The notes under the pieces: model-generated | Seen by the model: the letters and a program-made list of their open reading frames with translations, nothing else | What the model was told of the DNA's origin: nothing | The model's database searches: none | Position numbers and translations under genes: made by a program | In this document: one piece after another, positions 5,621 to 58,777 of the stretch | Layout: each line of letters opens with the position of its first letter | Position numbering within the stretch: position 1 is the first letter of the stretch | NCBI RefSeq assembly: GCF_012932915.1 | Contig: NZ_VCQU01000004.1 | Span: 434,001 to 498,000, forward strand | Length of the DNA stretch: 64,000 nt | Origin: Antrihabitans stalactiti | Lineage (GTDB): Bacteria; Actinomycetota; Actinomycetes; Mycobacteriales; Mycobacteriaceae | Direction: 5' to 3'

Positions 5621-5664
5621 TCGTGAGTCTTTTAGGAGTCTCTGGACTCCTAAAAGACTCACGA
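5621..5664. repeat. Palindrome family A, copy 1 (intergenic hairpin)
   Basis: Two perfect 20-base arms, TCGTGAGTCTTTTAGGAGTC and its complement, flank a 4-base loop (TCTG). The element begins immediately after the stop codon of the cupredoxin-like gene and ends one base before the glmS stop, so it fills the convergent gap. It probably works as a bidirectional terminator or mRNA 3'-end hairpin, though no clear U-tract follows. Near-identical copies are at 16526, 56823 and 58732. Confidence 0.9.
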
Positions 5665-5665
5665 G

Positions 5666-7534
5666 TCATTCGACGGTGACCGACTTCGCGAGGTTGCGGG
5701 GCTTGTCGACGTCGAAGCCGCGTGCTTGGGCGACCTCGGCGGCGAAAACCTGCAACGGCACCGTCGAGAGGAGCGGTTGCAGCAGGGTCGAGGCGGCGGG
5801 AATCTCGAAGAGATCGTCGGCGAACGGCCTGACCGTGTCGTCGCCTTCCTCTGCGATCACGATCGTCCGCGCACCACGGGCCTGGATCTCGCGGATATTG
5901 CTCAGCAGCTTCGAATGCAGGACCGCGCGACCCTTGGGCGATGGCATCACCACGATGACGGGCAGGCCGTCCTCGATGAGCGCGATCGGCCCGTGCTTGA
6001 GCTCGCCGGCGGCAAAGCCTTCCGCGTGCATGTAGGCCAGCTCTTTGAGCTTGAGTGCGCCTTCCAGCGCGACCGGGTAGCCAACGTGCCGACCGAGGAA
6101 CAACACCGTCGACGAATGGGCCAATTCGCGAGCCAGGGCCCGGACCGGGTCCATCGTCTGCAGCACGCGAGCGACGAGGTCCGGCATCGCGGCGAGGTCG
6201 TGGTACTCACGCGCTACCTCGTCGGGATATTTGGTGCCACGGGCTTGCGCAAGGGCGAGCCCGACCAAGTAGTTCGCCGTCACCTGCGCGAGGAACGCCT
6301 TGGTCGACGCGACCCCGATCTCCGGTCCTGCCCGGGTGTAGAGAACGGCATCGGCTTCGCGAGGAATCTGAGCGCCGTTGGTGTTGCACACCGCGAGGAC
6401 GCGGGCTTTCTGTTCTTTCGCGTGCCGCACGGCTTCGAGGGTGTCTGCGGTCTCCCCGGATTGGGAGATCGCGAGCACGAGCGTCGAGCGGTCCAGCACG
6501 GGGTCGCGGTAACGGAATTCCGACGCCAGTTCGATTTCGACGGGCAGCCGGGTCCAGTGTTCGATGGCGTACTTGGCGAGCAGACCCGAGTGGTAGGCGC
6601 TACCGCAGGCGACGACGAACACCTTGTCGACCTCGCGAAGCTCCTGATCGGACAGCCGTTGCTCGTCGAGCACGATGCGGCCCTTGGCGAAGTGCCCGAT
6701 CAAGGTGTCGCGAACGGCCGCGGGCTGCTCCTCGATCTCCTTGAGCATGAAGTAATCGTGGCCGCCCTTCTCGGCGGCCGCGAGATCCCAGTCGATGTGG
6801 AAGGGGCGAACCAAAGCCGTGGCGTCCGTGCCATCGAAACTGGTGACTGTGTAACCCTCGGCGGTGATCACGACCATTTGGTCTTGCCCGAGTTCGACGG
6901 CGTCGCGGGTGTGCTCGACGAACGCGGCGACGTCGGACCCGATGAACATCTCGCCGTCGCCGACGCCGACCACCAATGGGGTCGACCGCCTGGCCGCAAC
7001 GATGGTGTCCGGGTGATCGGCATGGGTGAAGACCAACGTGAATGCGCCTTCGAGGCGTCTCAGCACCGACAACGCGCTCGCTGCGAAGTCACCGGCCGTG
7101 TCGCCTTCGGCGTACGCACGCGACAGCAGGTGGACCGTCACCTCGGTGTCGGTATCGCTGAGGAAAGCGACGCCCTCTTTTTCGAGTTCGACGCGCAGCG
7201 GCGCGAAGTTCTCGATGATGCCGTTGTGGACGACGGCGATCTTGCCGGTCACATCGCGGTGCGGGTGGGCATTGCGGTCGGTCGCGCGGCCGTGGGTTGC
7301 CCAACGGGTGTGTCCGATTCCGGTATGACCACGGAAGGCATCAGGGCCCGCTTCGTCGAGCTCGGCCTCGAGATTCGCGAGCTTGCCGGACTTGCGTTCG
7401 ATCGCGACGCCGCCCGCCCCGTCGAGTATCGCGATGCCCGCGGAGTCGTAACCGCGGTATTCCATCCGCCTCAGCGCCTCGACCACGACACCTCGCGCCT
7501 CGCGATGGCCGACGTACCCAACGATTCCGCACAT
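5666..7534 (-). CDS. glmS: Glutamine-fructose-6-phosphate aminotransferase (isomerizing)
   Basis: Makes glucosamine-6-phosphate from fructose-6-phosphate and glutamine, the entry step to UDP-GlcNAc and peptidoglycan. The 622-residue protein starts MCGIVGYVG, so Cys2 is the glutaminase nucleophile after Met removal; MEYRGYDSAG, GHTRWATHG and HNGIIEN are in the N-terminal GATase domain. Two SIS sugar-isomerase domains follow (SQSGETADTLEA near residue 356, then FLGRHVGYPVALEGALKLKE), and the C-terminus is NLAKSVTVE as in the family. The divergent hydrolase-like gene begins 119 bases upstream. I see no glmS ribozyme-like structure, as expected for actinobacteria. Confidence 0.97.
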   Translation of the reverse strand: MCGIVGYVGHREARGVVVEALRRMEYRGYDSAGIAILDGAGGVAIERKSGKLANLEAELDEAGPDAFRGHTGIGHTRWATHGRATDRNAHPHRDVTGKIAVVHNGIIENFAPLRVELEKEGVAFLSDTDTEVTVHLLSRAYAEGDTAGDFAASALSVLRRLEGAFTLVFTHADHPDTIVAARRSTPLVVGVGDGEMFIGSDVAAFVEHTRDAVELGQDQMVVITAEGYTVTSFDGTDATALVRPFHIDWDLAAAEKGGHDYFMLKEIEEQPAAVRDTLIGHFAKGRIVLDEQRLSDQELREVDKVFVVACGSAYHSGLLAKYAIEHWTRLPVEIELASEFRYRDPVLDRSTLVLAISQSGETADTLEAVRHAKEQKARVLAVCNTNGAQIPREADAVLYTRAGPEIGVASTKAFLAQVTANYLVGLALAQARGTKYPDEVAREYHDLAAMPDLVARVLQTMDPVRALARELAHSSTVLFLGRHVGYPVALEGALKLKELAYMHAEGFAAGELKHGPIALIEDGLPVIVVMPSPKGRAVLHSKLLSNIREIQARGARTIVIAEEGDDTVRPFADDLFEIPAASTLLQPLLSTVPLQVFAAEVAQARGFDVDKPRNLAKSVTVE

Positions 7535-7653
7535 GGTTCACCAGGGTACTGGGGTCACCAGCACCTTCGGACCACCTACCACTGCCATCTTTTGCAAGCA
7601 AGGACCCCGGTCGGCCCGCGAACCAGCCCTGACATCGGATAACGTCTTGCTTT

Positions 7654-8514
7654 GTGGCGTCCTCTGTGAAATCCCTCTTAGCTGAGCTCGCGAACCGCGG
7701 TCCGCATCGAGTGCAGCGTGGAGACCTGGCGATCGTGGGACAGTCCGGCGTGGTCTACTCGCCCGCCGAAGGCCTGAATCTGCCGGCGGTGGCATTCGGG
7801 CACGGCTGGATGACGAACGTGGACAACTACAAATCCTTGCTGCAGCACCTCGCGTCCTGGGGCATCGTGGCAGCCGCCCCGAACAGCGAGCGCGGGTTGT
7901 TCCCGTCGCACCTCGGTCTTGCCGCCGACCTACGCACCACCCTCGACATCTGCGTCGGTGTGCGTCTCGGCGCAGGCGGGATCAGCGTCCACCCGGAAAA
8001 GCTGGCATATGCGGGCCACGGTCTCGGTGCGGGAGCTGCCGTGGTCGCAGCAGCTCAGCACTTGGAGGTTGCCGCTGTTGCCGCACTCTTCCCGGCGCCG
8101 ACTACTCCGCCGTCCGAGGTCAGTGCCGAGCACGTCGCCGTACCTGGGCTCATCTTGTCCGGCACCGACATGGGCGCCATCGACTCGAATGCGAAGAATC
8201 TTGCGGCCGCATGGGGCGGTACTGCGATCCTGCGCACGATCGACAAAGCGACGGGCAACGGGCTGCTGGAGGGGCGACGGGTCATGTCGGCGCTCGGCGC
8301 GGGCAAGCCGGAGAAGAAGACGCAATCGACAGCGCGTGCGTTGCTGACCGGTTTCCTGCTCTACACCGCAGGCGGGGACAAGAAGTACAAGGACTTTGCC
8401 GACCCGGAAGTCGAGATTCCCAAGACTTCGCTTGTCGATCCGCTCGCCGAAGAAGACGAGGACTCGGGGCGCAGGTCGCCGCTCGGTCAGATCAGCCAGC
8501 TGTTGGGTCGATAG
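7654..8514 (+). CDS. Alpha/beta-hydrolase-fold protein lacking the catalytic triad
   Basis: A 286-residue protein resembling cutinase/dienelactone-hydrolase-type alpha/beta-hydrolases: FGHGWMTNVDNYKSLLQHLASWG is the usual strand-oxyanion segment and AYAGHGLGAGAAV is the nucleophile elbow. The elbow reads G-H-G-L-G, so the nucleophilic serine is Gly123, and the histidine loop reads IDKATGNGLLEG without histidine. It is therefore probably a non-catalytic scaffold or binding protein. The acidic C-terminal tail (EEDEDSGRR) is unusual. It starts with GTG at 7654 and is divergent from glmS; its last 28 bases overlap the convergent coiled-coil gene. I do not know the function. Confidence 0.75.
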   Translation: MASSVKSLLAELANRGPHRVQRGDLAIVGQSGVVYSPAEGLNLPAVAFGHGWMTNVDNYKSLLQHLASWGIVAAAPNSERGLFPSHLGLAADLRTTLDICVGVRLGAGGISVHPEKLAYAGHGLGAGAAVVAAAQHLEVAAVAALFPAPTTPPSEVSAEHVAVPGLILSGTDMGAIDSNAKNLAAAWGGTAILRTIDKATGNGLLEGRRVMSALGAGKPEKKTQSTARALLTGFLLYTAGGDKKYKDFADPEVEIPKTSLVDPLAEEDEDSGRRSPLGQISQLLGR

Positions 8515-8711
8515 GTCTGCGGTTCGTCGTCGAGTTCCGGCTCTTTCGGTGGTTCGACGACCGGGGCAGGCTTGTCCGCGTACGCTTCGTCGGCTAATTC
8601 ACGTGACCGCCGGTCGGCTCGCTTTCGCGCCTCGTCGAGTTCGTCGCGTAGCCGATCGACGCGGCGGCGATACTCCGCGGCGATCGACTCGATCTCGCGG
8701 CTCCAACTCAC
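8487..8711 (-). CDS. Small charged coiled-coil protein in the glmM-downstream operon
   Basis: A 74-residue protein. Residues 3-42 form a highly charged helix (YRRRVDRLRDELDEARKRADRRSREL) with heptad-like spacing, and a Pro/Glu-rich tail follows. No signal peptide or membrane segment. Its ATG overlaps the stop of the preceding gene in ATGA, so it is probably translated from the same mRNA as the two upstream genes with type VII secretion features. The 3' end overlaps the convergent hydrolase-fold gene by 28 bases. Its function is unknown; a chaperone or cytosolic partner of the upstream products is possible. Confidence 0.6.
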   Translation of the reverse strand: MSWSREIESIAAEYRRRVDRLRDELDEARKRADRRSRELADEAYADKPAPVVEPPKEPELDDEPQTYRPNSWLI

Positions 8712-9628
8712 AGGGGTCCGGCCTCGGACAGTTCGACGTCCGGTGGATCGATCTCGAGCGCAATGCCACCGACAGGTGCATCGACGACCTGCGGTGGGGT
8801 TTCCGACAGTCCTGTCAGCAACGCTTCGCTGCGGCTCGGCTCGGCGGGCTTCGATGAATTCGGCATCGGATATGCGCTGCTGTCAACGGAATTCATCGAA
8901 CCCGTCAACGATTTGTACATCGCTTTCGTCGCGATGTCGGATTCCTTACACAACTCGTCGACCACCTTCAGCTGCGCGTCGAGTAGCGGGACGAACACCT
9001 CACGTAGCCACACCGCGCAGCGCGTTGCGACGTGCTCTCGCGCGGGGGCAATCGGCAACAAGGCAAGGGCGAGGTCCACCGTGAGATCCGGGAAATGCGT
9101 CGCGAGCGAGACCGACAATGGCAGCGTGACACCGTCGGTTACGGCCTTCGAACCGGCGACGATGACCGCGATATCGTCCGCGGTCTTCCCGGCGACGCGC
9201 TCCTCGGTGAGTCCGCCGACGACGTCGGACTTGGCATGGACGACGTCGCGCAAGCCGTCGGCGGCCGCAGTCATCGTGGCGAGAACCTCGCGGAGTTCCG
9301 ACCGACTCGCGCTTGCCCGATCGAGCAACCGCGCCAGATGGTCCTGGGCAGCCGCAGACGACGCGTCGTCCGTCCACGCTGATTCGAGCGCACGAACGTG
9401 CGTGCGCTGCCCGTCTGCCTCGGCGTCGAGCGCGTCGCAGACCTGTGCGATGGCATCGGTATCCGCCTCTAACACGTCGAGCTTCATTCCCCGTTGCGCG
9501 TTGTAGCGCGCCAAGAGTTGCTCGACTTCGATTGCCCGGCCCGTGACCTCGCCGTATGCGGGCAGAAACGCCGCGAAGTGCGACAGACCGTGCGCACCGG
9601 CGTCGAGAATCTCATCGACAGAGCTCAT
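8708..9628 (-). CDS. Helical protein, possible type VII secretion-associated protein
   Basis: A 306-residue, Ala-rich, mainly helical protein without signal peptide. The N-terminal 110 residues resemble a helical hairpin with a central tryptophan (ALESAWTDDASSAAAQDHL), as in WXG/PPE/EspA-type secreted proteins. A central part (about 150-240) includes a hydrophobic stretch, and the C-terminal about 60 residues are Pro/Ser/Glu-rich and probably disordered. It overlaps both neighbours by 4 bases, so the three genes form one coupled unit downstream of glmM. From memory, M. tuberculosis also has uncharacterised genes between mrsA/glmM and glmS. The link to type VII secretion is inferred from the small upstream gene and the W-turn. 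Confidence 0.65.
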   Translation of the reverse strand: MSSVDEILDAGAHGLSHFAAFLPAYGEVTGRAIEVEQLLARYNAQRGMKLDVLEADTDAIAQVCDALDAEADGQRTHVRALESAWTDDASSAAAQDHLARLLDRASASRSELREVLATMTAAADGLRDVVHAKSDVVGGLTEERVAGKTADDIAVIVAGSKAVTDGVTLPLSVSLATHFPDLTVDLALALLPIAPAREHVATRCAVWLREVFVPLLDAQLKVVDELCKESDIATKAMYKSLTGSMNSVDSSAYPMPNSSKPAEPSRSEALLTGLSETPPQVVDAPVGGIALEIDPPDVELSEAGPL

Positions 9629-9930
9629 GTGAGCAGGCCGTCGAACGTCGCTGCGATTTCATCGTCTTGGCGTCGATATGCCAGAGCTGTGGCGTCGACC
9701 GCAGCCGCGGCAGCAGCAGTCGCCGCCTGCCACGACCCGATGACTGCCCCGATCCGCGCATAGCCCGCACTCATTGCATGCCCCTCAGCCGCGAACTCGC
9801 GCCCCGCGGCGTCAGCACCGAATGCGCAGTTCTCCGCCGCAGCTGCCGCGTCACCGACCGTCGCTGCGGACGCAGCGAGCAACGTGACTGATTCACGTAC
9901 TTCGTCGAACTTGATATCCACGAGACCCAC
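9625..9930 (-). CDS. EspC-like small protein with type VII secretion signal
   Basis: A 101-residue, Ala-rich, helical protein resembling the ESX secretion-associated (EspC/DUF2580) family. It has Trp67 in the turn GSW and, in the following helix, Tyr85-Arg-Arg-Gln-Asp89, which fits the general type VII export signal YxxxD/E. No Sec signal. The start is GTG at 9930; another in-frame GTG three codons later is possible. Its stop overlaps the next gene in ATGA. The pairing of a short YxxxD protein with a longer helical partner resembles known co-secreted pairs, and a complete ESX-4 machine is encoded 13 kb away. Export itself is inferred. Confidence 0.65.
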   Translation of the reverse strand: MGLVDIKFDEVRESVTLLAASAATVGDAAAAAENCAFGADAAGREFAAEGHAMSAGYARIGAVIGSWQAATAAAAAAVDATALAYRRQDDEIAATFDGLLT

Positions 9931-9968
9931 CCCCGATTCGGCACGATATCAGCCGCCCCAGCGCCGAG

Positions 9969-11309: not shown

Positions 11310-11348
11310 AGAGCAGAACTCCTTCAAACCGTGGAAAGAAAACGAAGA

Positions 11349-11376: not shown

Positions 11377-11404
11377 CCTTTCCGTACTGCGCCGAAGCGT
11401 TAGA

Positions 11405-11892
<488 letters not shown>

Positions 11893-15065: not shown

Positions 15066-16517
15066 ATGACACCGAGGTTCGGGCGGCTCGCGAGCGCCGT
15101 TGTTCTGGGTTTCGCGACGCTGATCGTCGCTGGTTGCGCCGGCCAGATCGACGGCAAGCCGGTCGATATCTACGCCGATCCGAATCGAGTAGCGGGACTT
15201 CCGACAACCAACGGTCCGAACGGATTGCGCCCCGGCGTTCCCAACTCCACGCTGGAGGCTGAGAACTCCGACGACGGCCAAGTCGACCACATCGCGATCG
15301 ACGCCGTGGACGACCTGCAGGAGTACTGGAAGGCCGAGTATTCGAAGTACTTCGATGGCCAGTTCGAGCCGGTCACCAAGCTGATCTCCTGGGACCCGAA
15401 AGACAAGTCGAACAAGCTGCAATTCTGCGACGACGCGACCAAGGGTTTGGTCAACGCGGCGTACTGCCCGCTGGACAAGACCATCGGCTGGGACCGCACC
15501 ATTCTGCTGCCCACCCTCCGCGATCAGTTCGGTGACATTTCCATCGTCACGGTGCTCGCGCACGAGTACGGTCACGCGATTCAGGATCTCGCCGGCATCG
15601 TCGGCAACTCGCGCTCCGAAGTCATCGTTGCCGAGCAGCAAGCCGACTGTTTCGCCGGCGCATTCATGCGCCACGTCGCCGAGGGTGGGTCCGCCCACTT
15701 CACGGTCAACACCTCGGACGGCCTGAACTCCGTTCTTGCAACGATCATTTCGGTCCGTGACGCTCCGGAGGATTCGTCCGACGGTTCGCCGCACGGTTCG
15801 GCATTCGAGCGGGTGAGCGCGGTCCAGGCCGGGTTCACCGAGGGTCCGTCCGCGTGCAAGAAGATCGACCTCTCCGAGATCAAGGCCCGTCGACTCGGCC
15901 TGCCGCCGACCATGTTCGAGAGCGCATCCGACACCGGTGAGCTCCAGCCCGACGAGCAAGTCCTCGATACGTTCACGACGGCACTCGACGAGATCTTGAC
16001 CCTGTCGAACAGCCCGGAGGTCGACTACTCGGGTACCGACCTCGGATGCTCAGACGCTAAGGCGACTCCGGCCGCGACGTACTGCCCGGATTCCAACAAA
16101 GTCGGCATCGACCTCACCGCGCTCGAAGAACGCGCTGCCGTGATGATGGACGCCGACAACTCGGTTCGCCTACCCACAACGGTGACCGGCGATTACAACG
16201 CCTACGTGCTCGTGGCATCGCGATTCGCCCTCGCCAAGCAGAAGGAGAACGGCGACTCGCTGACCGGCCCGAAGGCGGCGCTGCGCACGTCGTGCCTCTC
16301 GGGATTCGTCACCGCCGTGCTCGGATCGTCGAACAATCCGACAAAGGATTTCTCGCTGTCTCCCGGCGATCTCGACGAGGCTGTCTCCGGACTCTTGCAG
16401 GACGGACTAGCGGCGAGCGACGTCGACGGCACAACGGTCGATGCCGGCTTCTCCCGCGTCGACGCATTCCGCACCGGGGTCCTCGGCGGCGAGGACGCCT
16501 GCAAGCGCTACGCGTAG
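15066..16517 (+). CDS. Exported neutral zinc metallopeptidase lipoprotein
   Basis: A 483-residue lipoprotein with a 24-residue signal ending in the lipobox LIVAGC. The catalytic zinc site is H166-E-Y-G-H170 in LAHEYGHAIQD, and the probable third ligand is Glu190 in AEQQADCFAGAFM, the pattern of the putative neutral zinc metallopeptidase family (YpfJ-like). Six or more cysteines lie outside the signal and may form disulfides. An ATG 13 codons upstream (15027) is possible, but 15066 has AAAGGG in front and gives a clean signal peptide. It is divergent from the FHA-ABC gene (185-base gap with no obvious operator). Substrate unknown. Confidence 0.85.
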   Translation: MTPRFGRLASAVVLGFATLIVAGCAGQIDGKPVDIYADPNRVAGLPTTNGPNGLRPGVPNSTLEAENSDDGQVDHIAIDAVDDLQEYWKAEYSKYFDGQFEPVTKLISWDPKDKSNKLQFCDDATKGLVNAAYCPLDKTIGWDRTILLPTLRDQFGDISIVTVLAHEYGHAIQDLAGIVGNSRSEVIVAEQQADCFAGAFMRHVAEGGSAHFTVNTSDGLNSVLATIISVRDAPEDSSDGSPHGSAFERVSAVQAGFTEGPSACKKIDLSEIKARRLGLPPTMFESASDTGELQPDEQVLDTFTTALDEILTLSNSPEVDYSGTDLGCSDAKATPAATYCPDSNKVGIDLTALEERAAVMMDADNSVRLPTTVTGDYNAYVLVASRFALAKQKENGDSLTGPKAALRTSCLSGFVTAVLGSSNNPTKDFSLSPGDLDEAVSGLLQDGLAASDVDGTTVDAGFSRVDAFRTGVLGGEDACKRYA

Positions 16518-16525
16518 CAGCCCAC

Positions 16526-16575
16526 CCCTCGTGAGTCTTTTAGGAGTCCAGGGACTCCTAAAAGACTCACGAGGG
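16526..16575. repeat. Palindrome family A, copy 2
   Basis: Perfect 24-base arms with a 2-base centre (AG). The core CTCGTGAGTCTTTTAGGAGT is the same as in copy 1, with extra CC/GG pairs at the outer end. It starts 8 bases after the metallopeptidase stop and ends one base before the convergent kinase stop. All 50 bases are identical to copy 3 at 56823. Confidence 0.92.
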
Positions 16576-16576: not shown

Positions 16577-17386
16577 TCAGCGGAGGGCGTCGATCCGATC
16601 GGCGACGGCGGCGGCGGTGCGAAGGCGAGTTCCCTTGGGCGCCAGGCACAATTCGACCAGCGCGGCTTCGTCTGGGGTGAGCAGCGGGGAGATGCGCGCC
16701 TTCCCCGCGTGCACGGCACGGATAGCGAGCATCGGCTGCCCGACCGGCAATTCACCGTAGAGGCCTTCGCCGGTCAGGGCGCGATTGATGGTCGCGCCGA
16801 GCGCCCAGACGTCGCTTGCCCGTGAGGGCGTCTCACCGTAGAGCAGCTCGGGATCGAGAAACTCGACCGAGGTTGCAGGCGCCATAGAGGTGACCGTATT
16901 CGACGAGTTGAGTACTCGGACCAGACCCAGATCCGACAGCTTGCCGCCGGTGTCGTCGACCATGACGTTGGCCGGCTTGATGTCACCGTGGACCATGCCT
17001 GCCTCGTGCAGCTCGTGGACCGCTCGGCTGGCATCCGCCAACGCGCGCAAGATCTCCCGGCGTTCGAGCGGACGGGCAGGCGACGCGAGCGAGCCCATCG
17101 GAAAGTACTCCATCGCATACAGGAAGTTGTCTTCGAGCACGGCGTCGTAGATTCGCACCAGATGAGGCGACCGGACCGCCGCGAACGCACGCAATTCGCG
17201 AACCCCACGTCGATATGCGTCTTCGCTGACCTGACCGGCGAAGACCTTCAACGCAACCCGGTCCGTTGCCAGACCGAGCCGCTCGGGGGCTTCTGCCAGG
17301 TAGTAGCGGCCGTGATTACCTTCGCCGAGCAGCCGGAGAATTCGATAGTCCGCGATGGCGGCCGGAATTGCTGCGTCAACTCGCAT
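16577..17386 (-). CDS. Soluble serine/threonine protein kinase
   Basis: A 269-residue Hanks-type kinase domain with no transmembrane helix or sensor domain. The glycine loop is GEGNHG (21-26), the ATP lysine Lys47 in VALKVF, the catalytic loop HGDIKPAN (Asp135, Asn140), the metal aspartate in SDLG (Asp152), and the P+1 region SVEFLDPELL. HRD is HGD and DFG is DLG, so it is a divergent kinase but has every catalytic residue. It is divergent from the antiporter (73-base gap) and lies within 6 kb of two FHA genes, which read phosphothreonine, so these may form one pathway. The partners are inferred from position only. Confidence 0.88.
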   Translation of the reverse strand: MRVDAAIPAAIADYRILRLLGEGNHGRYYLAEAPERLGLATDRVALKVFAGQVSEDAYRRGVRELRAFAAVRSPHLVRIYDAVLEDNFLYAMEYFPMGSLASPARPLERREILRALADASRAVHELHEAGMVHGDIKPANVMVDDTGGKLSDLGLVRVLNSSNTVTSMAPATSVEFLDPELLYGETPSRASDVWALGATINRALTGEGLYGELPVGQPMLAIRAVHAGKARISPLLTPDEAALVELCLAPKGTRLRTAAAVADRIDALR

Positions 17387-37957: not shown

Positions 37958-38754
37958 TCGCCACAGCGCAAGCTCCCACTGCCGGTTGGTCGGTCGCTGC
38001 CGGACAGGTTTTCAAGCGATGGTCGATGAACACGCTGCGCGAATCGTGGGGCGTCGGCGTCAGCCTGCTGCAACCGATTGTCTGGATCCTGTTGTTCGGG
38101 CAGGTGTTCAAGTCGATCGGCACGATTCCTGGGTTCGGCGATGGTAGCTACATCACCTTCCTGGTGCCGGGCGTGCTGATGATGACCGTGCTCTTCTCGG
38201 GCGCGTGGGCAGGCACCGGCTATATCGAAGACATCGACAGTGGCGTCATGAATCACGTTCTCACAGCTCCGGTTTCGCGCAGCGCGCTCGTCGCTGGTCA
38301 GCTCGCCAATCAGCTCGCGGTGAGCGCGGTCCAATCGGCGATGGTGCTGCTGATCGGCTTCCTCGGTGGAGCGCGTTTTCATGGCGGCGTGCTGGGACTG
38401 GTGCTGGCACTCATCGCTGCAACGCTGTTGGCAGCCACGTTCTGCTCGTTCTCGTCCGCGATCGCACTGATCACTCGTAGCCAGCTCGCGCTGATCGGGA
38501 TATCGCAGATGATCGTCCTGCCTGCGACGTTCTTGTCATCGGCGATGATGGCGCCTGACCTGATGCCCAGCTGGGTACGGACCGTGTCGCGCTACAACCC
38601 CGTGTCCTGGGCGGTCGACGTGGGCCGGTCAGGTTTGGCGGGAACGCAGGACTGGGGATCGGTCGCCTGGCAGCTCGGGCTCCTCACCGCGCTCGCAGCG
38701 GCTGCCTTCGCCTTCGCGATATCGGCGTTCCGCAGTTTCCAGCGGTCGCTGTAG
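37954..38754 (+). CDS. ABC-2 exporter permease (DrrB-like)
   Basis: A 266-residue membrane protein with six predicted helices and the ABC-2 signature region near the last two (YNPVSWAVDVGRSGLAG). The coupling segment is LTAPVSRSALVAGQL. The ATG overlaps the ATPase stop in ATGA. Together the two genes should make a small-molecule or lipid exporter; the substrate is unknown. Confidence 0.9.
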   Translation: MIATAQAPTAGWSVAAGQVFKRWSMNTLRESWGVGVSLLQPIVWILLFGQVFKSIGTIPGFGDGSYITFLVPGVLMMTVLFSGAWAGTGYIEDIDSGVMNHVLTAPVSRSALVAGQLANQLAVSAVQSAMVLLIGFLGGARFHGGVLGLVLALIAATLLAATFCSFSSAIALITRSQLALIGISQMIVLPATFLSSAMMAPDLMPSWVRTVSRYNPVSWAVDVGRSGLAGTQDWGSVAWQLGLLTALAAAAFAFAISAFRSFQRSL

Positions 38755-38763: not shown

Positions 38764-38807
38764 CCGTGCGCGAGTCTCACCCCTGACGGGGTAAGACTCG
38801 CGCACGG
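38764..38807. repeat. Palindrome family B, copy 1
   Basis: Arms of 20 bases (CCGTGCGCGAGTCTCACCCC and complement, one mismatch) around a TGAC loop. It lies 9 bases after the permease stop and 23 bases before the methyltransferase start on the same strand. It is a likely terminator hairpin, without a clear U-tract. A related, more degenerate copy is at 44248. Confidence 0.85.
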
Positions 38808-41779: not shown

Positions 41780-44242
41780 GTGACGACCGAAACCTCGCAC
41801 ACGACCGCATGCATCCTGTGTGAATGCAATTGCGGCATCAAGATCGAACTCGACGGTCGCCGCTTCAAGACGATCCGCGGCGACAAAGAGCACCCGGCAT
41901 CGCAGGGCTACACGTGCGAGAAGGCAATGCGGCTCGATCACTACCAGAACGGCACGCACCGGCTGACGTCGCCGCTACGCCGACGGTCCGACGGTAGCTA
42001 CGAAGAGATCGATTGGGACACAGCGATCTCCGAGATCGCCGCCCGCCTCGGCCAGATCCGCGACACCGTCGGCGGCGACAAGATCTTCTTCTACGGCGGC
42101 GCGGGCCAGGGCAACCACCTGGGGCGGGCTTACGGCGCAGCGTTGCAAGCGGCGATCGGTTCGAAGTACTACTCGAACGCCCTCGCGCAGGAGAAGACCG
42201 GCGAGATGTGGGTCGACGGAAAGCTCTACGGCGGCCATACGAAAGGCGATTTCGAGCACTCCGACGTCGTGGTGTTCGTCGGTAAGAACCCGTGGCAGAG
42301 CCACAGTTTCCCGCGCGCACGGCCTGTCCTGAAGGCGATGGCCGCGGACCCGAAACGCACGATGATCGTCATCGACCCACGCCGCACCGAGACCGCAGAC
42401 CTCGCGGACATCCACCTCCAGGTCCGTCCGGGCACCGACGCGTGGTGCCTGGCAGCGATGGGAGCGGTCCTCGTTCAAGAAGACCTCGTCGATCACGCTT
42501 TCCTCGCCGAGCACGCGGTCGACACGGAGCCAGTCCTGGCCGCGCTCGCCCAGATTCCCGTCGCCGAGTACGCGCAGACCTGCGGAGTGTCCGAAGATCT
42601 GATCCGTGCGGCCGCCCGCGCCATCGGAAATGCCGAAACTGCCTGCACCTACGAGGATTTGGGCATCCAGCAGGCGCCACACAGCACGCTGTCGTCCTAC
42701 CTCAACAAATTGCTCTGGATCCTGACCGGCAACTTCGGCAAGCCGGGCACGATGAGCCTGCACTCGTCGTTCGTGGCGATCGCGGGTGGTGGATCCGGCG
42801 GCGGTCCACGCAAGGCACCATCGCGGCTGGATTCTGTGATCGCGTCCGTCGGCGCGGTTGCGACGCGATTCGTAGCCGATGTTGTGACGGCCGGAATCGC
42901 CACGGCCGCAGAATATTCCGCTACCACCGGACTAGCCGATCGAGGCGCGGGCGCCCTGCTGTCGAAAGCACCGATCACCAAAGTCGCTGCAGGCGGCGGG
43001 GTCGGTGGCGGCGGTGGCAGAACGACGCCGGTCACCGGTGCCCGAATCATCGGCGGCCTGGTCCCGTGCAATTCGATCGCCGACGAGATCTTGACCGATC
43101 ACCCCGACCGCTTCCGCGCGATGTGGATCGACAGCGTCAACCCGGCGCACTCGTTGGCCGAATCCACTCGATTCCGTGCGGCATTGGACGCGCTCGACCT
43201 GGTCGTCGTGATCGATGTCGCCTTCACCGAAACCGCTCGGCACGCCGACTACGTATTGCCCGCGAGCACGCAGTTCGAAAAATGCGAAGCGACGTTCTTC
43301 AATTTCGAGTTCCCACGCAACGTCTTCCAACTACGAGCCCCCGTGCTCGACCCGCTGCCAGGGACCCTCGCGGAACCGGAGATCTATGCCCGCGTGATTC
43401 GCGCGCTCGATGTGATTCCGGTAGCGACGATTTCACGCCTCCGTAAGGCGGCCCACGCAGGTCCCGATGCCTTCGCTCTGGCCTTCTTCGCCAGCGTTGC
43501 AGCGGACCCGTCGTTGATGAAACTCGCGTCGGCGGTGCTGTACGAGACTCTCGGCGAGACCCTGCCGCCCAAAATGCGCGGCGCCGCCGCGCTGTGGGGT
43601 GCCGCGCAACTGTGCGCGGCGGCGAATCCGGCCGGCGTGCGGCGCGCTGGATTCGGTGGCACGGGAACGCAACCCGGAACGAAACTGTTCGACGCAATCC
43701 TGAACTCGCGTTCCGGCGTGACGTTCACGGTGGACGACTGGTCGGATGCGTGGAGCTACGTGCGCGGACGCGAGCATCGCATCAAGGTCGCGATCCCCGA
43801 GCTGCTGACCGAACTGGCGAAGCTCGACGCTGAGCAGTCGTGGACGAGCGAGGAGTTCCCGTTCATCCTCGCCGCGGGCGAGCGTCGCGCGTTCACCGCC
43901 AACACGATCATCCGCGACTCGGGTTGGCGACGTCGCGATGCTGCAGGCGCACTTCGGATGAGCACCGCCGACGCCGAAAGCATGGGCTTCACTACCGGCT
44001 CGCGCGTTCGTGTGATCACCGAAGCCGGCGCTGCCGAGACGGTCGTCGAGGTCTCCGACACGCTCCGCGCGGGTCACATCACCCTTCCCAACGGACTCGG
44101 CGTCGACAACATCGGCACCGACGGAGGCGCCGTCGCCGTCGGTATCGCGCCCAACGAACTCACCTCCTCGAAGCACAAGGACCCCATCGCCGGCACCCCC
44201 TGGCACAAGCACGTCCCCGCCCGCGTGGAGGCGGTGCTGTAA
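41780..44242 (+). CDS. Molybdopterin-dependent oxidoreductase (Rv0197-like)
   Basis: An 820-residue cytoplasmic enzyme of the DMSO-reductase superfamily. The N-terminal 4Fe-4S site uses Cys11, Cys14, Cys18 and Cys46 (CILCECNCG ... GYTCEKA), with an extra Cys16. bis-MGD-binding segments include FVGKNPWQSH, VIDPRRTETADLADIHLQ and the C-terminal molydopterin-binding domain near residues 690-810. The usual active-site Cys/SeCys position appears to be occupied by a different residue (QEKTGEMW), so the substrate cannot be given. Residues about 334-415 are an unusual Gly-rich insertion. It has no TAT signal. It is probably repressed by the preceding TetR. Confidence 0.85.
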   Translation: MTTETSHTTACILCECNCGIKIELDGRRFKTIRGDKEHPASQGYTCEKAMRLDHYQNGTHRLTSPLRRRSDGSYEEIDWDTAISEIAARLGQIRDTVGGDKIFFYGGAGQGNHLGRAYGAALQAAIGSKYYSNALAQEKTGEMWVDGKLYGGHTKGDFEHSDVVVFVGKNPWQSHSFPRARPVLKAMAADPKRTMIVIDPRRTETADLADIHLQVRPGTDAWCLAAMGAVLVQEDLVDHAFLAEHAVDTEPVLAALAQIPVAEYAQTCGVSEDLIRAAARAIGNAETACTYEDLGIQQAPHSTLSSYLNKLLWILTGNFGKPGTMSLHSSFVAIAGGGSGGGPRKAPSRLDSVIASVGAVATRFVADVVTAGIATAAEYSATTGLADRGAGALLSKAPITKVAAGGGVGGGGGRTTPVTGARIIGGLVPCNSIADEILTDHPDRFRAMWIDSVNPAHSLAESTRFRAALDALDLVVVIDVAFTETARHADYVLPASTQFEKCEATFFNFEFPRNVFQLRAPVLDPLPGTLAEPEIYARVIRALDVIPVATISRLRKAAHAGPDAFALAFFASVAADPSLMKLASAVLYETLGETLPPKMRGAAALWGAAQLCAAANPAGVRRAGFGGTGTQPGTKLFDAILNSRSGVTFTVDDWSDAWSYVRGREHRIKVAIPELLTELAKLDAEQSWTSEEFPFILAAGERRAFTANTIIRDSGWRRRDAAGALRMSTADAESMGFTTGSRVRVITEAGAAETVVEVSDTLRAGHITLPNGLGVDNIGTDGGAVAVGIAPNELTSSKHKDPIAGTPWHKHVPARVEAVL

Positions 44243-44247: not shown

Positions 44248-44287
44248 GTGCGTGAATTTCACCCCTGGAGGGGTGAGACGCGCGCAC
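44248..44287. repeat. Palindrome family B, copy 2 (degenerate)
   Basis: Nineteen-base arms with four mismatches around a GG centre. The inner TCACCCCT/AGGGGTGA part is perfect. The right arm's complement (GTGCGCGCGTCTCACCCCT) differs from the family B copy at 38764 by one base. It lies 5 bases after the oxidoreductase stop and 60 bases before the response regulator start, so it may end the oxidoreductase mRNA. Confidence 0.7.
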
Positions 44288-52580: not shown

Positions 52581-53180
52581 ATGACAACGACCGCGGGAGC
52601 GCTCACCCCTCGCCCTCCTGGGCGGCCCGCGTCGGCCAGCAAGGCAGAGGTCCTTGCAGTCGCGACGAAGCTCTTCCTGCAGGGTGAGCGCCTCGACGTG
52701 CAGGCGATTGCAACGGAATTGGGCGTCAGTCGCGCGACGATCTATCGCTGGTACGGGTCTCGCGAAGGTCTGCTCGGCACCGTGCTCGCGAGCGAATTCG
52801 AGCGCAGAATCGAGTCCGCCGATGCTGCTTGCGATGCTCGCGGAGCAACCCGCCTTCTGATCGTCATCGAGCGCGTCGTCCGCGAGATCGCCGAACACCA
52901 TGCGATGCAACGCTATTTCGAAAACGAGCCGACCTCAGCCTTCCGGATTCTCACGTCGAGCGGCGGCATCGTCCAGCCACGCGCGGTCTCGACAATCGAG
53001 AAGTTGCTCGATCGCGTCATCGACGAAGACGGCTACCGCCCCTCGATCGAGCGCTCGACCCTGGCGTACACACTGGTGCGATTGGGCGAAGCGTTCCTCT
53101 ACAACGACGCCGCCGCGGGGTTGCGCGGCGACATCGACCGGGCGGCGGAAGTACTCGTCGCCCTACTGCGAACCGACTGA
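52581..53180 (+). CDS. qsdR: TetR-family regulator, QsdR-like
   Basis: A 199-residue repressor. The helix-turn-helix is VQAIATELGVSRATIYRWYGSREGLLG. The C-terminal domain (RYFENEPTSAFRILTSSGG, YTLVRLGEAFLYNDAAAG) resembles the QsdR group. In Rhodococcus erythropolis QsdR controls the lactonase QsdA and acyl-CoA ligase QsdC; the QsdA- and QsdC-like genes lie immediately beside it here, with the gene ends convergent 5 bases apart. The symbol is given by this context and overall resemblance. Confidence 0.78.
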   Translation: MTTTAGALTPRPPGRPASASKAEVLAVATKLFLQGERLDVQAIATELGVSRATIYRWYGSREGLLGTVLASEFERRIESADAACDARGATRLLIVIERVVREIAEHHAMQRYFENEPTSAFRILTSSGGIVQPRAVSTIEKLLDRVIDEDGYRPSIERSTLAYTLVRLGEAFLYNDAAAGLRGDIDRAAEVLVALLRTD

Positions 53181-53185
53181 CGGCC

Positions 53186-54142: not shown

Positions 54143-54152
54143 TGTGGGAATC

Positions 54153-55790
54153 TCAGCCGAGGTTGATGACGTCGAGTTCGCCTTCTGCGTACTTCGCTCG
54201 CAGCACCTTCTTGTCGAACTTGCCGACGCTGGTCTTCGGTACCTCACCGATGAACGACCAGCGCTCCGGCAGCTGCCATTTCGCAACCTTGTCAGCGAGG
54301 AACTCGCGCAGCGCCTCGGCGTCGACGTCGGCGCCCTCGCGGAGCACCGCTGCGACCAGCGGCCGCTCGTCCCACTTCTCGTCGGGAACGCCGAAAACCG
54401 CGGCTTCCGCGATCGCGGGATGTGCCATGACCGCATTCTCGAGGTCGACGGACGAAATCCACTCGCCACCGGATTTGATGACGTCCTTGGAACGGTCGAC
54501 CAGCGTCAGGAACCCGTTCGGCGAGATCTTGCCGACGTCACCCGTCTTCAACCAACCGTCGTGGAACTTGCCGGGATCGATGTCGGATCCATCCGGTGAG
54601 TAGTACGAACCGGTGATCCACGGTCCGCGAACCTCCAACTCGCCCAACGTCTCTCCGTCGTTCGGCGCCACGGAGCCGTCGTCGGCGATCAACCGCGCTT
54701 GCACACTGGCAGGGAAGCGGCCCTGCGTGATGCGGTACTCCCACGCCTGCTCGTCGGTCACGTGCGCGGGCGGGTGCGCGACGCTGCCGAGCGGCGACGT
54801 TTCTGTCATGCCCCACGCATGCAGGATGCGCACGCCGTGCTTCTCCTGGAATGCCTTCATCATCGACGGCGGCACAGCGGAACCACCCACGATGACGTCG
54901 CGCAGGTGTGTGATGTCCTGCGGCTTCGCCTCGAGCGCGGCAAGAACGCCGGTCCAGATCGTGGGCACCGCGCCTGCGAACGTCGGCTTCTCGGTCGCCA
55001 TCATCTGCAGCAACGGGTCCGGCTGCAGGAAGCGGTCCGGCATCAGCAGGTCCGCACCGGCCATCAGCGCCGCGTACGGCAGACCCCACGCGTTCGCATG
55101 GAACATCGGAACGATCGCCAGGATGTTGTCCTGGCTGTTGAGGCCCATCGCCATCGGTGAGCACACCTGCATCGCATGCAGCCAGCACGAGCGGTGCGAG
55201 TACACGACACCCTTCGGGTCACCCGTCGTCCCCGACGTGTAACACATTGCGGCGGCTGACTTTTCGTCGATCACCGGGAAGTCGAACGAGTCGGACTGCG
55301 AGGCGAGCAGTTCGTCGTAGGAATGCACGGTCACGCCGGCGGGCGCTTCGAGCGCCGACGCATCGCCGTTGGCGACGATCACGTGCTGGACGGTCTTCAA
55401 CGACGGCAGGTATTTGCCGAACAGCGGGATCAAGGTGGCATCGACGACGACAACCTTGTCCTCCGCATGGTTGGCCACGAAGATCAACTGCTCCGGGAAC
55501 AGCCGGATGTTGAGCGCATGCAGCACCGCACCCATCGCGGGGACCGCGTTGTACGCGACGAGATGCTCGTTGTTGTTCCACATGAACGTCGCGACGCGGT
55601 CGCCTTCGCCGATGCCGAAGCCGCGCAAGGCATTTGCGAGCTGCGCGGCCTGGCGGCCGAGTTCCCCGTAGGTCAGGACCCGAGTACCGGCACCCGTCCA
55701 GGTCGCGACCTTGGCTTCGGATTGGAAGGTGCTCGCGTACCGGAGCAACGTCGCCAATGACAGCGGCTCGTCCTGCATGGTGCTCAACAT
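54153..55790 (-). CDS. qsdC: Fatty acid-CoA ligase, QsdC-like
   Basis: A 545-residue adenylate-forming ligase. Motifs: YTSGTTGDPKGVVYSHRS (P-loop), HAWGMTETSP, GWLKTGDVGKISPNG with the hinge region VDRSKDVIKSGGEWISS, and the catalytic lysine in TSVGKFDKK. It activates medium- or long-chain acids to CoA thioesters. It is first in the operon with the lactonase, matching the function of QsdC, which activates acids freed by lactone opening. AGGAG lies 11 bases before the ATG; the ATG at 55778 is an alternative. Confidence 0.88.
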   Translation of the reverse strand: MLSTMQDEPLSLATLLRYASTFQSEAKVATWTGAGTRVLTYGELGRQAAQLANALRGFGIGEGDRVATFMWNNNEHLVAYNAVPAMGAVLHALNIRLFPEQLIFVANHAEDKVVVVDATLIPLFGKYLPSLKTVQHVIVANGDASALEAPAGVTVHSYDELLASQSDSFDFPVIDEKSAAAMCYTSGTTGDPKGVVYSHRSCWLHAMQVCSPMAMGLNSQDNILAIVPMFHANAWGLPYAALMAGADLLMPDRFLQPDPLLQMMATEKPTFAGAVPTIWTGVLAALEAKPQDITHLRDVIVGGSAVPPSMMKAFQEKHGVRILHAWGMTETSPLGSVAHPPAHVTDEQAWEYRITQGRFPASVQARLIADDGSVAPNDGETLGELEVRGPWITGSYYSPDGSDIDPGKFHDGWLKTGDVGKISPNGFLTLVDRSKDVIKSGGEWISSVDLENAVMAHPAIAEAAVFGVPDEKWDERPLVAAVLREGADVDAEALREFLADKVAKWQLPERWSFIGEVPKTSVGKFDKKVLRAKYAEGELDVINLG

Positions 55791-55907
55791 GTTCGGCGTT
55801 TCTCCTCTGTAGCGGTCATGCGGCCGGGATCAAGACTATTGCCAGGATCACATCGGCGGCAATGGTACGTTCCGCCCTGACTGTTTCAAATAGGAATGTG
55901 AGAAACC

Positions 55908-56831
55908 GTGCCACTCGACCCGAGCTACCGGCCCATTCTCGACACACTCGAGGCCAGCGGCGTCCTTCCGTTGAGCCAATGGACAGCGCCCCAGGCGCGC
56001 GAGGTCTATCGGCAGGTCTCCTTCGGCCGGCGCGGTCCGGATTTCATCGCTGAACAGGTCGACAAGGTCGAAAATCGTGTGGTGCCAGGTCCGGGCGGTG
56101 ACATCCCGGTCCGGGTGTACACGCCCGCCGACGATCGCGGCCGCGTCCTCACCTTTGTCCACGGCGGCGGCTGGGTAATCGGCGACATCGACACCCACGA
56201 TCCACAGTGCAGGCGCATCGCGAATGCGGTCGGCGCGGTGGTTGTCTCGGTCGACTATCGACGCGCGCCGGAACATCCGTATCCGGCGCCGCTCGACGAC
56301 GTCATGGCCGCACTGGCCTGGACCGCCGCCAACTATCCCGACCGGCCGCTGGTGGTCGGTGGTGACAGTGCCGGCGGAAACCTCTCAGCCGCAGCGGCTT
56401 TGCGAGCCCGCGACGAAGGTCCAGTGCTCGCCGCCCAGCTGCTGATCTATCCGGCAGTCGATCCCAGTTCCTCCATGCCATCGGTCGTGGCGAACGGCAG
56501 CGGCTACTTCCTGACCGGCGAAGACCTCGTGTGGTTCATCGACCAGTACCTGCCGGACCCGAGCATGCGCACCGAGCCGACTGCGGACCTCATCAACGCC
56601 GACCTCGCGGGTCTGCCGCCGACGGTGATAGCTACGGCCGAATTCGACCCCCTGCGCGACGAAGGTGACGCCTACGCCAATCGACTCCGGGAGTGCGGCG
56701 TCGAGGTCCGGCACTTTCCTGGACCAGGACAGATCCACGGATTCTTCGCCTTCGCCCCTGGCGTTCCCTCCGCGGCCGCGCTACGCGAAGACATGCTTGC
56801 CGCACTCTCGGACCTGCTCGACCCCTCGTGA
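55908..56831 (+). CDS. HSL-family esterase/lipase
   Basis: A 307-residue alpha/beta-hydrolase of the hormone-sensitive lipase family. The oxyanion motif HGGGW is at 85-89, the nucleophile Ser154 in GGDSAGGN, the acid in EFDPLRDEG and the histidine in QIHGFF. Cytoplasmic. It starts with GTG and is divergent from the acyl-CoA ligase gene (117 bases between, with short inverted repeats GTTTC/GAAAC and ATTGCC/GGCAAT of unknown meaning). Its last codons lie inside the family A palindrome. Confidence 0.9.
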   Translation: MPLDPSYRPILDTLEASGVLPLSQWTAPQAREVYRQVSFGRRGPDFIAEQVDKVENRVVPGPGGDIPVRVYTPADDRGRVLTFVHGGGWVIGDIDTHDPQCRRIANAVGAVVVSVDYRRAPEHPYPAPLDDVMAALAWTAANYPDRPLVVGGDSAGGNLSAAAALRARDEGPVLAAQLLIYPAVDPSSSMPSVVANGSGYFLTGEDLVWFIDQYLPDPSMRTEPTADLINADLAGLPPTVIATAEFDPLRDEGDAYANRLRECGVEVRHFPGPGQIHGFFAFAPGVPSAAALREDMLAALSDLLDPS

Positions 56832-56872
56832 GTCTTTTAGGAGTCCAGGGACTCCTAAAAGACTCACGAGGG
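56823..56872. repeat. Palindrome family A, copy 3
   Basis: Perfect 24-base arms around AG, identical over all 50 bases to copy 2 at 16526. Unlike the other copies it lies between two genes on the same strand: the esterase stop codon is inside the left arm, and the next gene starts 22 bases after the right arm. Confidence 0.92.
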
Positions 56873-56894
56873 TTGGGCTGAGTAGCCTGGGCGA

Positions 56895-57533
56895 GTGAGT
56901 GAGGCGGAGAGTTTTCGGAGCTACGGTGGCGTGCCTGTTGCCCATCGTCGCGACGAACGACGGGCCCGCTTCATCGAAGCAGCACTGACCGTTTTCGCAG
57001 CCCAGGGCTATGCGCACAGCACGGTCGCCGATGTCTGCGCAGCTGCTGGACTCTCGAAGCGGCAGTTCTACGAGCAGTTCGCCAACGCCGAGGAATTGTT
57101 GCTCGCCACCTACGACAAGATTCAGGCCGACGCCCGAGCGACCGTGCAGCAGGCGCTGGCGGAGCTGCAGACCGAAGACATCCGACAGGTCGTCGCGACG
57201 GCGATCACCGCATTCCTGACCTATATCGAATCGGACAGCCGCCGGGCGCGGGTTTCGTTCGTGGAGATCGTCGGCGTGAGCGAGCGGGTCGAACAACATC
57301 GTCTCGACGACCGCAAGCATTGGTCGTTGCTGATCAAGGTTGCCGCGGAGGCCACGATCGGTCCGAATGCGGAGCCGCCGAGCGGATACTCGCTGACCGC
57401 AACAGCGTTCATCGGCTCGCTGTACGCCGTCGTCCACGAGTGGAGTCTCACCGAACCGCGCCCACCGGTTGCCGACCTCGTCGAGCTTCTGACCAGAGTC
57501 CTGATTGCCCTCATTGCACCTACTGCGGGCTAG
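56895..57533 (+). CDS. TetR-family regulator
   Basis: A 212-residue regulator. The helix-turn-helix is STVADVCAAAGLSKRQFYEQFANAEELLL; the C-terminal ligand domain contains FVEIVGVSERVEQHR and a Trp-rich WSLTEPRPP segment. It starts with GTG. The PucR-type regulator begins 25 bases later on the same strand, so the two are probably co-transcribed. Targets are unknown; the esterase upstream and the secreted lipase nearby are candidates. Confidence 0.87.
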   Translation: MSEAESFRSYGGVPVAHRRDERRARFIEAALTVFAAQGYAHSTVADVCAAAGLSKRQFYEQFANAEELLLATYDKIQADARATVQQALAELQTEDIRQVVATAITAFLTYIESDSRRARVSFVEIVGVSERVEQHRLDDRKHWSLLIKVAAEATIGPNAEPPSGYSLTATAFIGSLYAVVHEWSLTEPRPPVADLVELLTRVLIALIAPTAG

Positions 57534-57558
57534 CATGCGAGCCATGGAGGACCGGCCG

Positions 57559-58731
57559 ATGACGCCCGCTCCGTTTGTGGCGACGGCAAGTCGGGTGCTG
57601 CTCGAGGAAATCGACAACCTCACGGACGAGATTGCCCGTGAGGTTGTACGGCGTGAACCCGCCTACGGCAACTTGAGCCCTGCTGCGCAACAAGACATTC
57701 GAAATGTCAGCCGGGACAATATGATCGCCATCCTCGGCGCGCTGAGCGGCGAACCCGCGTCCGGCGACGCAATCGCGCGTGCCACGGGAAAGCTGCGCGC
57801 CGAACAAGGTGTGCCGCTGCCAGCGGTGTTGCGTGCGTTCCGCATCGGGACGACCGTCGTCTGGGATCGGCTCATACTCGCAGCCGACAACCCCGCAGAC
57901 AGCCGCGATCTACTGCTGACGGCGTCGGACATCTGGAACGTTGTCGACGACTTCTCCCAGGGCATCACTGCTGCATATCAGGAAACGACGACGGAACAGA
58001 TGCGCCGCGACGCGCATGCCCGCGACGCGGCATTGGACGTTCTGCTGTCCGGACGCATCGTCGATGGCCCGGAGCTGTGGGAAAGCGCGAACGTCCTGCG
58101 GCTTCCGCACCATGCAACCTATTGCGTCGTCGTAGCCATGTCGGGAACGCCTGCAGGAGAGACTCTTCCCGGCGTCAGTGACAGCCTCGCGACGGTGGGG
58201 GTGCGGTCGGCGTGGCGCGTCGAGCTGGACAGTCAGGTCGGCGTCGTCGCACTCACTCCGCGGTTCGACGTTGAGCGCCTCGCGGCGTGCGCAGCCGAAC
58301 GGACGTTGGGCCGAGTCGGCGTTAGCGTGCCCTACGACAACCTGGAAGAAACGGCGGCAGCGCGTCGCCAAGCGCAATTAGCTTGCGCTGCAGGTAAACC
58401 CGGGAGCCGTGAAGTCGTGCAGTACGACAAAGCGCCTGTCGCGATTCTGCTCGCGGGCGCCCCGGAGGTCTCGGGCAGCCTCATCGCGTCTGTGCTCGGA
58501 CCCATCTTGGCGCTGCCCGAGCACGAACGCGACATTCTGCTCGAGACGATGCGGACCTGGTTCGCCTCCGGCGGCGACCCCTCCGCCACGGCGGCTGCGC
58601 TGTACTGCCATCGCAACACGGTCCGCCAGCGGCTCAATCGAGTCGCTCAGCTGACCGGGCACGATCTCACGTCGCCTACCGCGGCGATCGAGGTCTACCT
58701 AGCCCTCGAGGCCCACCGCATCGCCCCCTGA
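57559..58731 (+). CDS. PucR/CdaR-type transcriptional regulator
   Basis: A 390-residue regulator. The N-terminal RsbRD-like helical domain (about 1-150) is followed by a GGDEF-like central region and the C-terminal PucR helix-turn-helix (LLETMRTWFASGGDPSATAAALYCHRNTVRQRLNRVAQLTG). GGAGG lies 8 bases before the ATG at 57559, which is preferred over the in-frame ATGs at 57535 and 57544. This type often controls lipid or small-molecule catabolism in actinobacteria. The secreted lipase is the convergent neighbour. Confidence 0.87.
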   Translation: MTPAPFVATASRVLLEEIDNLTDEIAREVVRREPAYGNLSPAAQQDIRNVSRDNMIAILGALSGEPASGDAIARATGKLRAEQGVPLPAVLRAFRIGTTVVWDRLILAADNPADSRDLLLTASDIWNVVDDFSQGITAAYQETTTEQMRRDAHARDAALDVLLSGRIVDGPELWESANVLRLPHHATYCVVVAMSGTPAGETLPGVSDSLATVGVRSAWRVELDSQVGVVALTPRFDVERLAACAAERTLGRVGVSVPYDNLEETAAARRQAQLACAAGKPGSREVVQYDKAPVAILLAGAPEVSGSLIASVLGPILALPEHERDILLETMRTWFASGGDPSATAAALYCHRNTVRQRLNRVAQLTGHDLTSPTAAIEVYLALEAHRIAP

Positions 58732-58777
58732 CTCGTGAGTCTTTTTGGAGTCCCTGGACTCCTAAAAGACTCACGAG
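58732..58777. repeat. Palindrome family A, copy 4
   Basis: Twenty-two-base arms around CT with a single mismatch: the left arm reads GTCTTTTTGGAGTC where the other copies read GTCTTTTAGGAGTC. It starts directly after the PucR-type stop and ends 3 bases before the convergent lipase stop. Confidence 0.9.

Follow-up and report, generated by a model that had tools for sequence, protein, structure and literature searches.

A dispersed family of short, near-perfect palindromes that may act as bidirectional gene ends in Antrihabitans stalactiti

Four long palindromes at gene ends in a 64,000-nucleotide stretch of the Antrihabitans stalactiti genome (assembly GCF_012932915.1, contig NZ_VCQU01000004.1, positions 434,001 to 498,000; hereafter the window) appear to be members of a dispersed family of elements resembling repetitive extragenic palindromes (REPs). 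The family is characterized by its copy number, its placement at gene 3' ends, its symmetry, its sequence variants (here called dialects) and its occupancy of sites that differ between species. The unit spans about 40 nt and is nearly a perfect palindrome, with arms of 18-19 bp and outer ends GTG[A/C]G and C[G/T]CAC; some of the related genomes have, in addition, a small GC-rich hairpin next to it, on one side or on both, with TAG at the start and CTA at the end. We place at roughly 55% the probability that this is a REP-like family, apparently without a REP-associated tyrosine transposase (RAYT), whose dispersed members act as bidirectional gene ends.

The four window copies belong to one dialect (A) and share the arm TCGTGAGTCTTTT[A/T]GGAGTC (Table 1). 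Their arms are 20, 24, 24 and 22 nt long (copies 5621, 16526, 56823 and 58732, respectively), with 100%, 100%, 100% and 95% complementarity. The original prediction had described these four palindromes, the occurrence of GAGTC twice in each arm, the identity of copies 16526 and 56823 over 50 bases, the near-complete filling of three convergent gaps and the presence of a stop codon in the fourth copy. All of this was reproduced: the gaps leave 0-8 bases, and copy 56823 includes the TGA of the gene that ends within it, at 56831, by gene calls from a home-made codon-usage caller. An 18-nt piece of the arm, allowing up to three mismatches, has eight matches in the window versus 0.02 expected. The count of four was itself too low, as two copies of a second dialect (B) had been missed; these begin with GTGCG, end with CGCAC, have the same 40-nt length and directly follow gene ends.

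Table 1. Palindromic elements in the window. R2, multi-dialect covariance model described in the text; the strand of a palindrome is given as a dot.
Element	Position	Core	Strand	Context and remarks
Dialect-A palindrome	5621..5664	5623-5662	.	between convergent genes 4955-5620 (+) and glmS 5666-7465 (-)
Dialect-A palindrome	16526..16575	16531-16570	.	between convergent genes 15066-16517 (+) and 16577-17386 (-)
Dialect-A palindrome	56823..56872	56828-56867	.	gives TGA stop 56829-56831 to gene 55908-56831 (+); next gene 56931 also +
Dialect-A palindrome	58732..58777	58735-58774	.	one T-T mismatch; between convergent genes 57595-58731 (+) and 58781-60088 (-)
Dialect-B palindrome	38764..38807	38766-38805	.	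downstream of gene 38026-38754 (+), upstream of 38948 (+); R2 match E 8e-10, itself a row of R2
Dialect-B palindrome	44248..44287		.	5 nt past stop of gene 41780-44242 (+), upstream of response-regulator gene 44318 (+); R2 match E 2e-4, not a row of R2

Across the 6.76-Mb genome of the window (G000; its genus is g1 and its family f1 below), the arm has 213 forward and 214 reverse matches at up to two mismatches, against 0 and 1 for the reversed pattern. Full palindromes of the form GAGTC-N6-GAGTC-N2..8-GACTC-N6-GACTC number 194, with none for the reversed control. Given that these palindromes account for 388 arms and that there are 427 arm matches in all, the arms are nearly always paired in this genome. 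Further copies, whose scarcity would have told against the original prediction, are abundant. Mean identity is 0.95 within dialect A (48 copies) and 0.82 within dialect B (13 copies), and the two dialects share a mean identity of just 0.41.

A chance origin was rejected by shuffles and reversed controls, with nine matches to a dialect regular expression versus none in 600 kb. A phage origin was rejected as well, since the eight IMG/VR stretches that carry one arm have no second arm behind it; the sole named-genome match, to a Flavobacteriales metagenome-assembled genome in a collection that does not hold the window's own genome, likewise lacks a second arm. Plasmid DNA gave only weak, unrelated matches. 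For two proteins of the window, the best relatives on plasmids come from Rhodococcus (24 of 49 records) and from Mycobacterium or Mycolicibacterium (11 of 13 records), with identities below 60% throughout, as would fit an actinobacterium of this group. A reading of the GTGCG ends as boundaries of group II introns was considered and not retained. At gathering score, Rfam 15 has no match in the window and finds just two tRNAs in 20 related loci. Searches of the open-access literature with the element's sequence strings returned nothing, and topic searches returned general papers on REPs, stem-loops or terminators, or none, in keeping with the earlier remark that no named family is known.

Placement was counted over 464 kb, made up of the window and 20 further stretches of 20 kb each. 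The latter were chosen around known elements, so that absolute occupancy is inflated and the comparison of gene-pair classes is less affected; one regular-expression match inside a gene (L097:10051) was removed as false beforehand. This sample holds 34 dialect-A elements: 20 between convergent genes, 12 between tandem genes, one in a divergent gap and one at a stretch edge. Convergent pairs are occupied in 20 of 66 cases, tandem pairs in 12 of 259 and divergent pairs in 1 of 63 (Fisher p = 3e-9 for convergent versus remaining pairs). Convergent gaps make up 15% of the intergenic bases and hold 61% of copies (p = 3e-9). In the tandem gaps, 11 of the 12 copies lie within 34 nt of the 3' end of the upstream gene, and some elements supply the TGA stop themselves (offset -4). 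The enrichment in convergent gaps and at gene 3' ends, together with the copy number, bears out the original view of a dispersed, REP-like family.

A larger set of 169 unique elements from several genomes, many from loci fetched because they carry an element, comprises 78 convergent, 72 tandem and 11 divergent copies, five inside called genes and three at locus edges. Outside the genus, 47 loci representing 46 distinct sites (L170 and L260 are one site) include 22 convergent and 22 tandem copies and two at edges, with none divergent and none inside a gene. Of these 46 sites, 44 overlap a gene 3' end or lie within 32 nt of one.

Related genomes, where the original prediction had suggested looking for the element, gave a divided answer: in the genomes searched, G000 is practically the only carrier of the exact sequence, but its architecture recurs in many genera as lineage dialects. 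The exact arm, at up to one mismatch, is absent from 250 other genomes of the family; the exceptions are G118 and G130, each of which has a lone match with no second arm. When the window DNA was compared by BLAST with three other genomes of the genus, one of them, G042, yielded dozens of matches that are about 45-65 nt long and 80-89% identical. These correspond to palindromes such as CTCGTGAGTCTTTTCGGAGG...CCTCCGAAAAGACTCACGAG, often flanked by small frame hairpins. The pattern CGTGAGTC-N14..44-GACTCACG occurs 141 times in G000, 126 times in G042 and not at all in the other two, G015 and G061; five of six genomes of a second genus, g21, have 7, 23, 10, 2 and 8 matches. Overall, it is present in 18 of 401 genomes, 11 of which lie outside g1 and g21 and have a single pattern match each.

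In g1 and g21, seven of the ten genomes have matches to model R1, with at least 150 matches in G000 and at least 150 in G042; across the family, the model is positive in 16 of 121 genomes and 6 of 31 genera; nine diverged matches were searched again. R1 has no match in G015, G061 or G094, although scans for palindromes of any sequence revealed further dialects in G061 and G015. Mean identity is 0.86 within G042 (32 copies) and 0.74 within g21 (27 copies); dialect A of G000 has a mean identity of 0.80 to the G042 copies and 0.65 to those of g21. What recurs is a unit of about 40 nt, GTG[A/C]G...C[G/T]CAC, with lineage-specific arms.

Twenty-nine cores from all dialects align over 40 columns with no gap, GTG.G and C.CAC being invariant, in rows that were chosen as palindromes with GTG ends and at 40 nt except where the pattern allowed other lengths; core lengths of 39, 41 and 42 also occur. 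From these cores we built a multi-dialect covariance model, R2 (cut-off E <= 1e-4, the E-values being rough). It is positive in 44 of 397 genomes of the order and 25 of 86 genera, G000 included. The positives outside f1 number 35 genomes, 27 of them in family f14, with cores such as GTGAGTGTTTTGGGTCGTTCTAACGACCCAAAACACTCAC (30 loci inspected, among the matches listed).

Orthologous gene ends were also compared. By a strict scan of G000 sites with an ortholog at hand, the orthologous end is also occupied in 3 of 14 cases in G042 (two of these three come from loci fetched for their elements, L078 and L080, and are biased), 1 of 8 in G015, 1 of 7 in G061 and 0 of 1 in G047. A looser reading adds one occupied site in G042 and one in G061. 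The glmS end (copy 5621 of the window) carries three different dialects in G000, G042 and G061 and no element in G015. At the gatA end, one dialect is common to G000 and G061, another is found in G015, and G042 has none. At the end of the primary sigma-factor gene, the element is present in G000 only, and three relatives have unrelated hairpins. Among the orthologous ends compared, no pair of empty and filled sites resolved a target-site duplication. In a separate observation, L080 (G042), L145 (G047) and L157 (G000) apparently represent one gene end, which has a different dialect in each of these loci from two genera; L080 and L145 have a further element at a distance of about 1.1 kb.

Taken as bidirectional gene ends, the elements would work as follows. 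Since the palindrome reads nearly alike on both strands, a transcript arriving from either side would form the same long hairpin; predicted RNA hairpins are very stable, with energies of -37.3 and -45.4 kcal/mol (z = -8.1 and -8.5). Located at gene 3' ends, in G000 mostly between convergent genes, the element often provides the stop codon, either as a TGA in the core or as a TAG in the frame, and its hairpin would end, trim or protect the mRNA of both neighbors. Such a role at RNA 3' ends, whether by termination, RNase III-type trimming or 3' protection, is suggested by the placement, the symmetry and the single replacement at the sigma-factor gene. Copies were probably gained or lost between sites during the history of the genus, by a machinery other than a Y1/RAYT transposase (in the sense of the Pfam family that was searched for). 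Copies of one genome are more alike than those of relatives, which gives the lineage dialects.

Several observations weigh against a function as gene ends. First, U-rich stretches (5 T in 8 within 24 nt) follow only 9 of 96 dialect-A ends, and are missing at the other 87; 3.4% of random 24-mers from the window have one. The figure for all ends is 18 of 337, and the hairpin therefore rarely shows this canonical feature of an intrinsic terminator. Second, copy L087:14823 of G000 lies between sufS and the next gene (open reading frame 14349-14795 of L087), which we take to be sufU. These two genes nearly abut in G015, G042 and G061, which speaks against an obligatory strong terminator at this place. 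Third, 11 of the 169 elements are divergent and 5 are intragenic; three of these are dialect B of G000 (two divergent, one inside a gene). Fourth, stem-loops of many bacteria favor convergent gaps and the first 50 bp past the stop (PMC1590033; this and the other papers below are cited from excerpts), so the placement by itself is not special. The remaining points concern the symmetry. In tandem copies read in transcript orientation, 31 G-U, 19 A-C and 38 other mismatches were counted (G-U versus A-C, p = 0.12), and selection on RNA structure is therefore not demonstrated. Templated correction of palindromes could yield the same covariation. Given that the aligned rows were picked as GTG-ended palindromes at 40 nt, their paired fraction, invariant ends and uniform length are partly built in.

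The strongest competitor, which we regard as possible but clearly less probable than bidirectional gene ends, holds that these are neutral or mildly selfish miniature elements, tolerated where they do least harm, just past stop codons, so that their placement reflects purifying selection. Lineage-specific occupancy and dialects would fit this well, as would the preservation of stops through the element's own TAG or TGA, the copy between genes that nearly abut in relatives, and the rarity of the U-tract. Against it stand the crowding of tandem copies behind the upstream gene instead of over the whole gap, the like placement in other genera with different arms, and the concentration of 61% of copies in 15% of the intergenic sequence.

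The symmetry of the core bears on a further alternative. In the chosen rows, 96.7% of cells are paired, versus 68.1 +- 1.4 in shuffles, and 138 cells are changed on both arms versus 41 +- 5, the changes being almost wholly Watson-Crick in these rows picked as palindromes. One-sided changes are limited to 4 of 522 cells, and the outermost pair is G-C in 29 of 29 cores, as rows with GTG ends were picked. This pattern fits selection on both strands, or templated palindrome correction, better than selection on one RNA. Alternatively, the palindrome could be a double-stranded site to which a dimeric protein or a nucleoid factor binds, its position between convergent genes serving supercoiling or the organization of the chromosome; the scarcity of one-sided changes and the constant outer GTG.G and C.CAC (in rows picked for their ends) speak for such a site. 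We consider this improbable, as the inner arm varies between and within genomes with its symmetry kept, which is unexpected for a fixed half-site, and two unlike dialects coexist in G000.

The frames around the core differ among lineages. Hairpins with a stem of at least 5 bp occupy 35 of 64 flanks in G042, against 0 of 64 controls taken further out; the corresponding counts are 27 of 54 and 1 of 54 in g21, and 13 of 40 and 0 of 40 in other f1 loci. They are not above control in G000 (4/120 versus 4/120) and few in other families (2/42 versus 0/42). A TAG located 12-21 nt to the left of the core, or a CTA to its right, accompanies 29 of 64 flanks in G042 (control 4), 18 of 54 in g21 (control 1) and 18 of 40 in other f1 loci (control 0); the signal is weak in G000 (13/122, control 1/122) and not above control in other families (0/42, control 1). 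The frame TAG is preceded by G in 5 of 12 cases in G042, 8 of 10 in g21 and 5 of 8 among the other f1 loci. Of 21 listed cases in G042, 13 have their nearest stop at a distance of 14-16 nt from the core; this is the place of the frame TAG, as expected if the frame TAG is the stop. With their (G)TAG start and GC-rich stem, the frame hairpins of G042 and g21 resemble GTAG-tagged REPs, yet no PF01797 match was found in those genomes.

The palindrome also looks like an insertion target. Of 33 readable contig ends of G000 that were examined (19 starts and 14 ends; six further starts are masked), 15 consist of a repeated sequence resembling an insertion sequence (IS) joined to part of the palindrome (L132-L136, L293, L295, L304, L305, L307, L316, L317, L320, L321 and L327), and in 12 of these 15 joints the core is broken off between positions 13 and 14. 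The sequence read at the joints contained no transposase gene, so the term IS reflects the recurrence of these sequences at contig ends. REPs are IS targets too (PMC1525189), and mobile sequences insert into the palindrome in both settings; the palindrome and the organism are different there, and one core position takes most of the joints here.

REPs are the closest known kind of element (PMC3733652, PMC2817692). Like the GTAG- and CGTC-tagged REPs of PMC3733652, the elements here are short, high-copy palindromes, mostly between convergent or unidirectional open reading frames and downstream of genes, with species-specific types; the GTAG termini of those REPs often give a TAG stop, and stop codons are supplied here as well. 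Unlike tagged REPs, the core is symmetric to its outermost base, spans about 40 nt and has no unpaired tag, whereas CGTC stems measure 8-9 bp (PMC3733652). Frequent GT pairing is noted for REPs in PMC3733652, in contrast to the few G-U pairs here. The main text of PMC3733652 does not contain the words actinobacteria, Rhodococcus, Nocardia or Mycobacterium. A further difference concerns the enzyme: RAYT (Y1_Tnp, PF01797) was not found in any of the ten genomes searched, which belong to g1 and g21, and the E. coli positive control was detected. Because the core has no unpaired tag and no RAYT was found in those ten genomes, we call the element REP-like rather than REP. The original label was REP/MITE-like (MITE, miniature inverted-repeat transposable element); its REP part holds for a short, high-copy, extragenic palindrome downstream of genes and fails for the classical REP/RAYT class. 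That these are classical REPs moved by a RAYT is thus very improbable, even though the TAG ends of the frame hairpins are often GTAG and IS-like sequences are inserted in the palindromes as in REPs; frame hairpins at control level in G000 and few in other families add to the case against it.

Other bacteria offer partial parallels. The motif GAATCCAT(N)23ATGGATTC of B. japonicum has 52 copies, nearly all close to gene 3' ends (PMC1590033 and PMC5217627). Such stem-loops and motif pairs share with our elements the concentration at gene 3' ends and in convergent gaps; their sequences and organisms are different, and aligned cross-genus dialects, a feature here, are not described in those excerpts. 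In the uptake signal sequence (USS) terminators of H. influenzae (PMC5217627), too, gene ends carry inverted pairs of one repeated word. A USS/DUS (DNA uptake sequence) system would also have its word singly in large numbers, whereas single arms are rare here. That ordinary intrinsic terminators grew alike by chance or convergent selection can be set aside: hairpins do lie at gene 3' ends, but the 95% mean identity of dialect A, the 194 copies, the rare U-tract and the differing occupancy between species all contradict it. The original prediction had already argued that independent terminators would not keep the same sequence.

In the excerpts cited, REP-like repeats are tied to other phyla, and the GTAG types to RAYT transposases. 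A family for which no RAYT was found in the genomes tested, and which combines dialects with a strict placement at 3' ends across many genera of one order, would offer a tractable system for how short palindromes spread and become alike. Such repeats may also bear on how transcript ends are defined in bacteria of high GC content, where U-tract terminators are considered scarce. A more speculative extension, in which we have considerably less confidence than in bidirectional gene ends as such, is that many genera of the order carry RAYT-independent palindromic 'gene-end cassettes': mobile units combining both-strand stops with a two-way hairpin, spread by an undescribed enzyme and rewritten in concert into dialects. 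At one orthologous gene end, L086:3460 in G000 and L078 in G042, similar left frame hairpins (CCTAGCCGCTTCGC and CCTAGGCGCTTCGC) surround very different central dialects, looking as if the center had been replaced in place.

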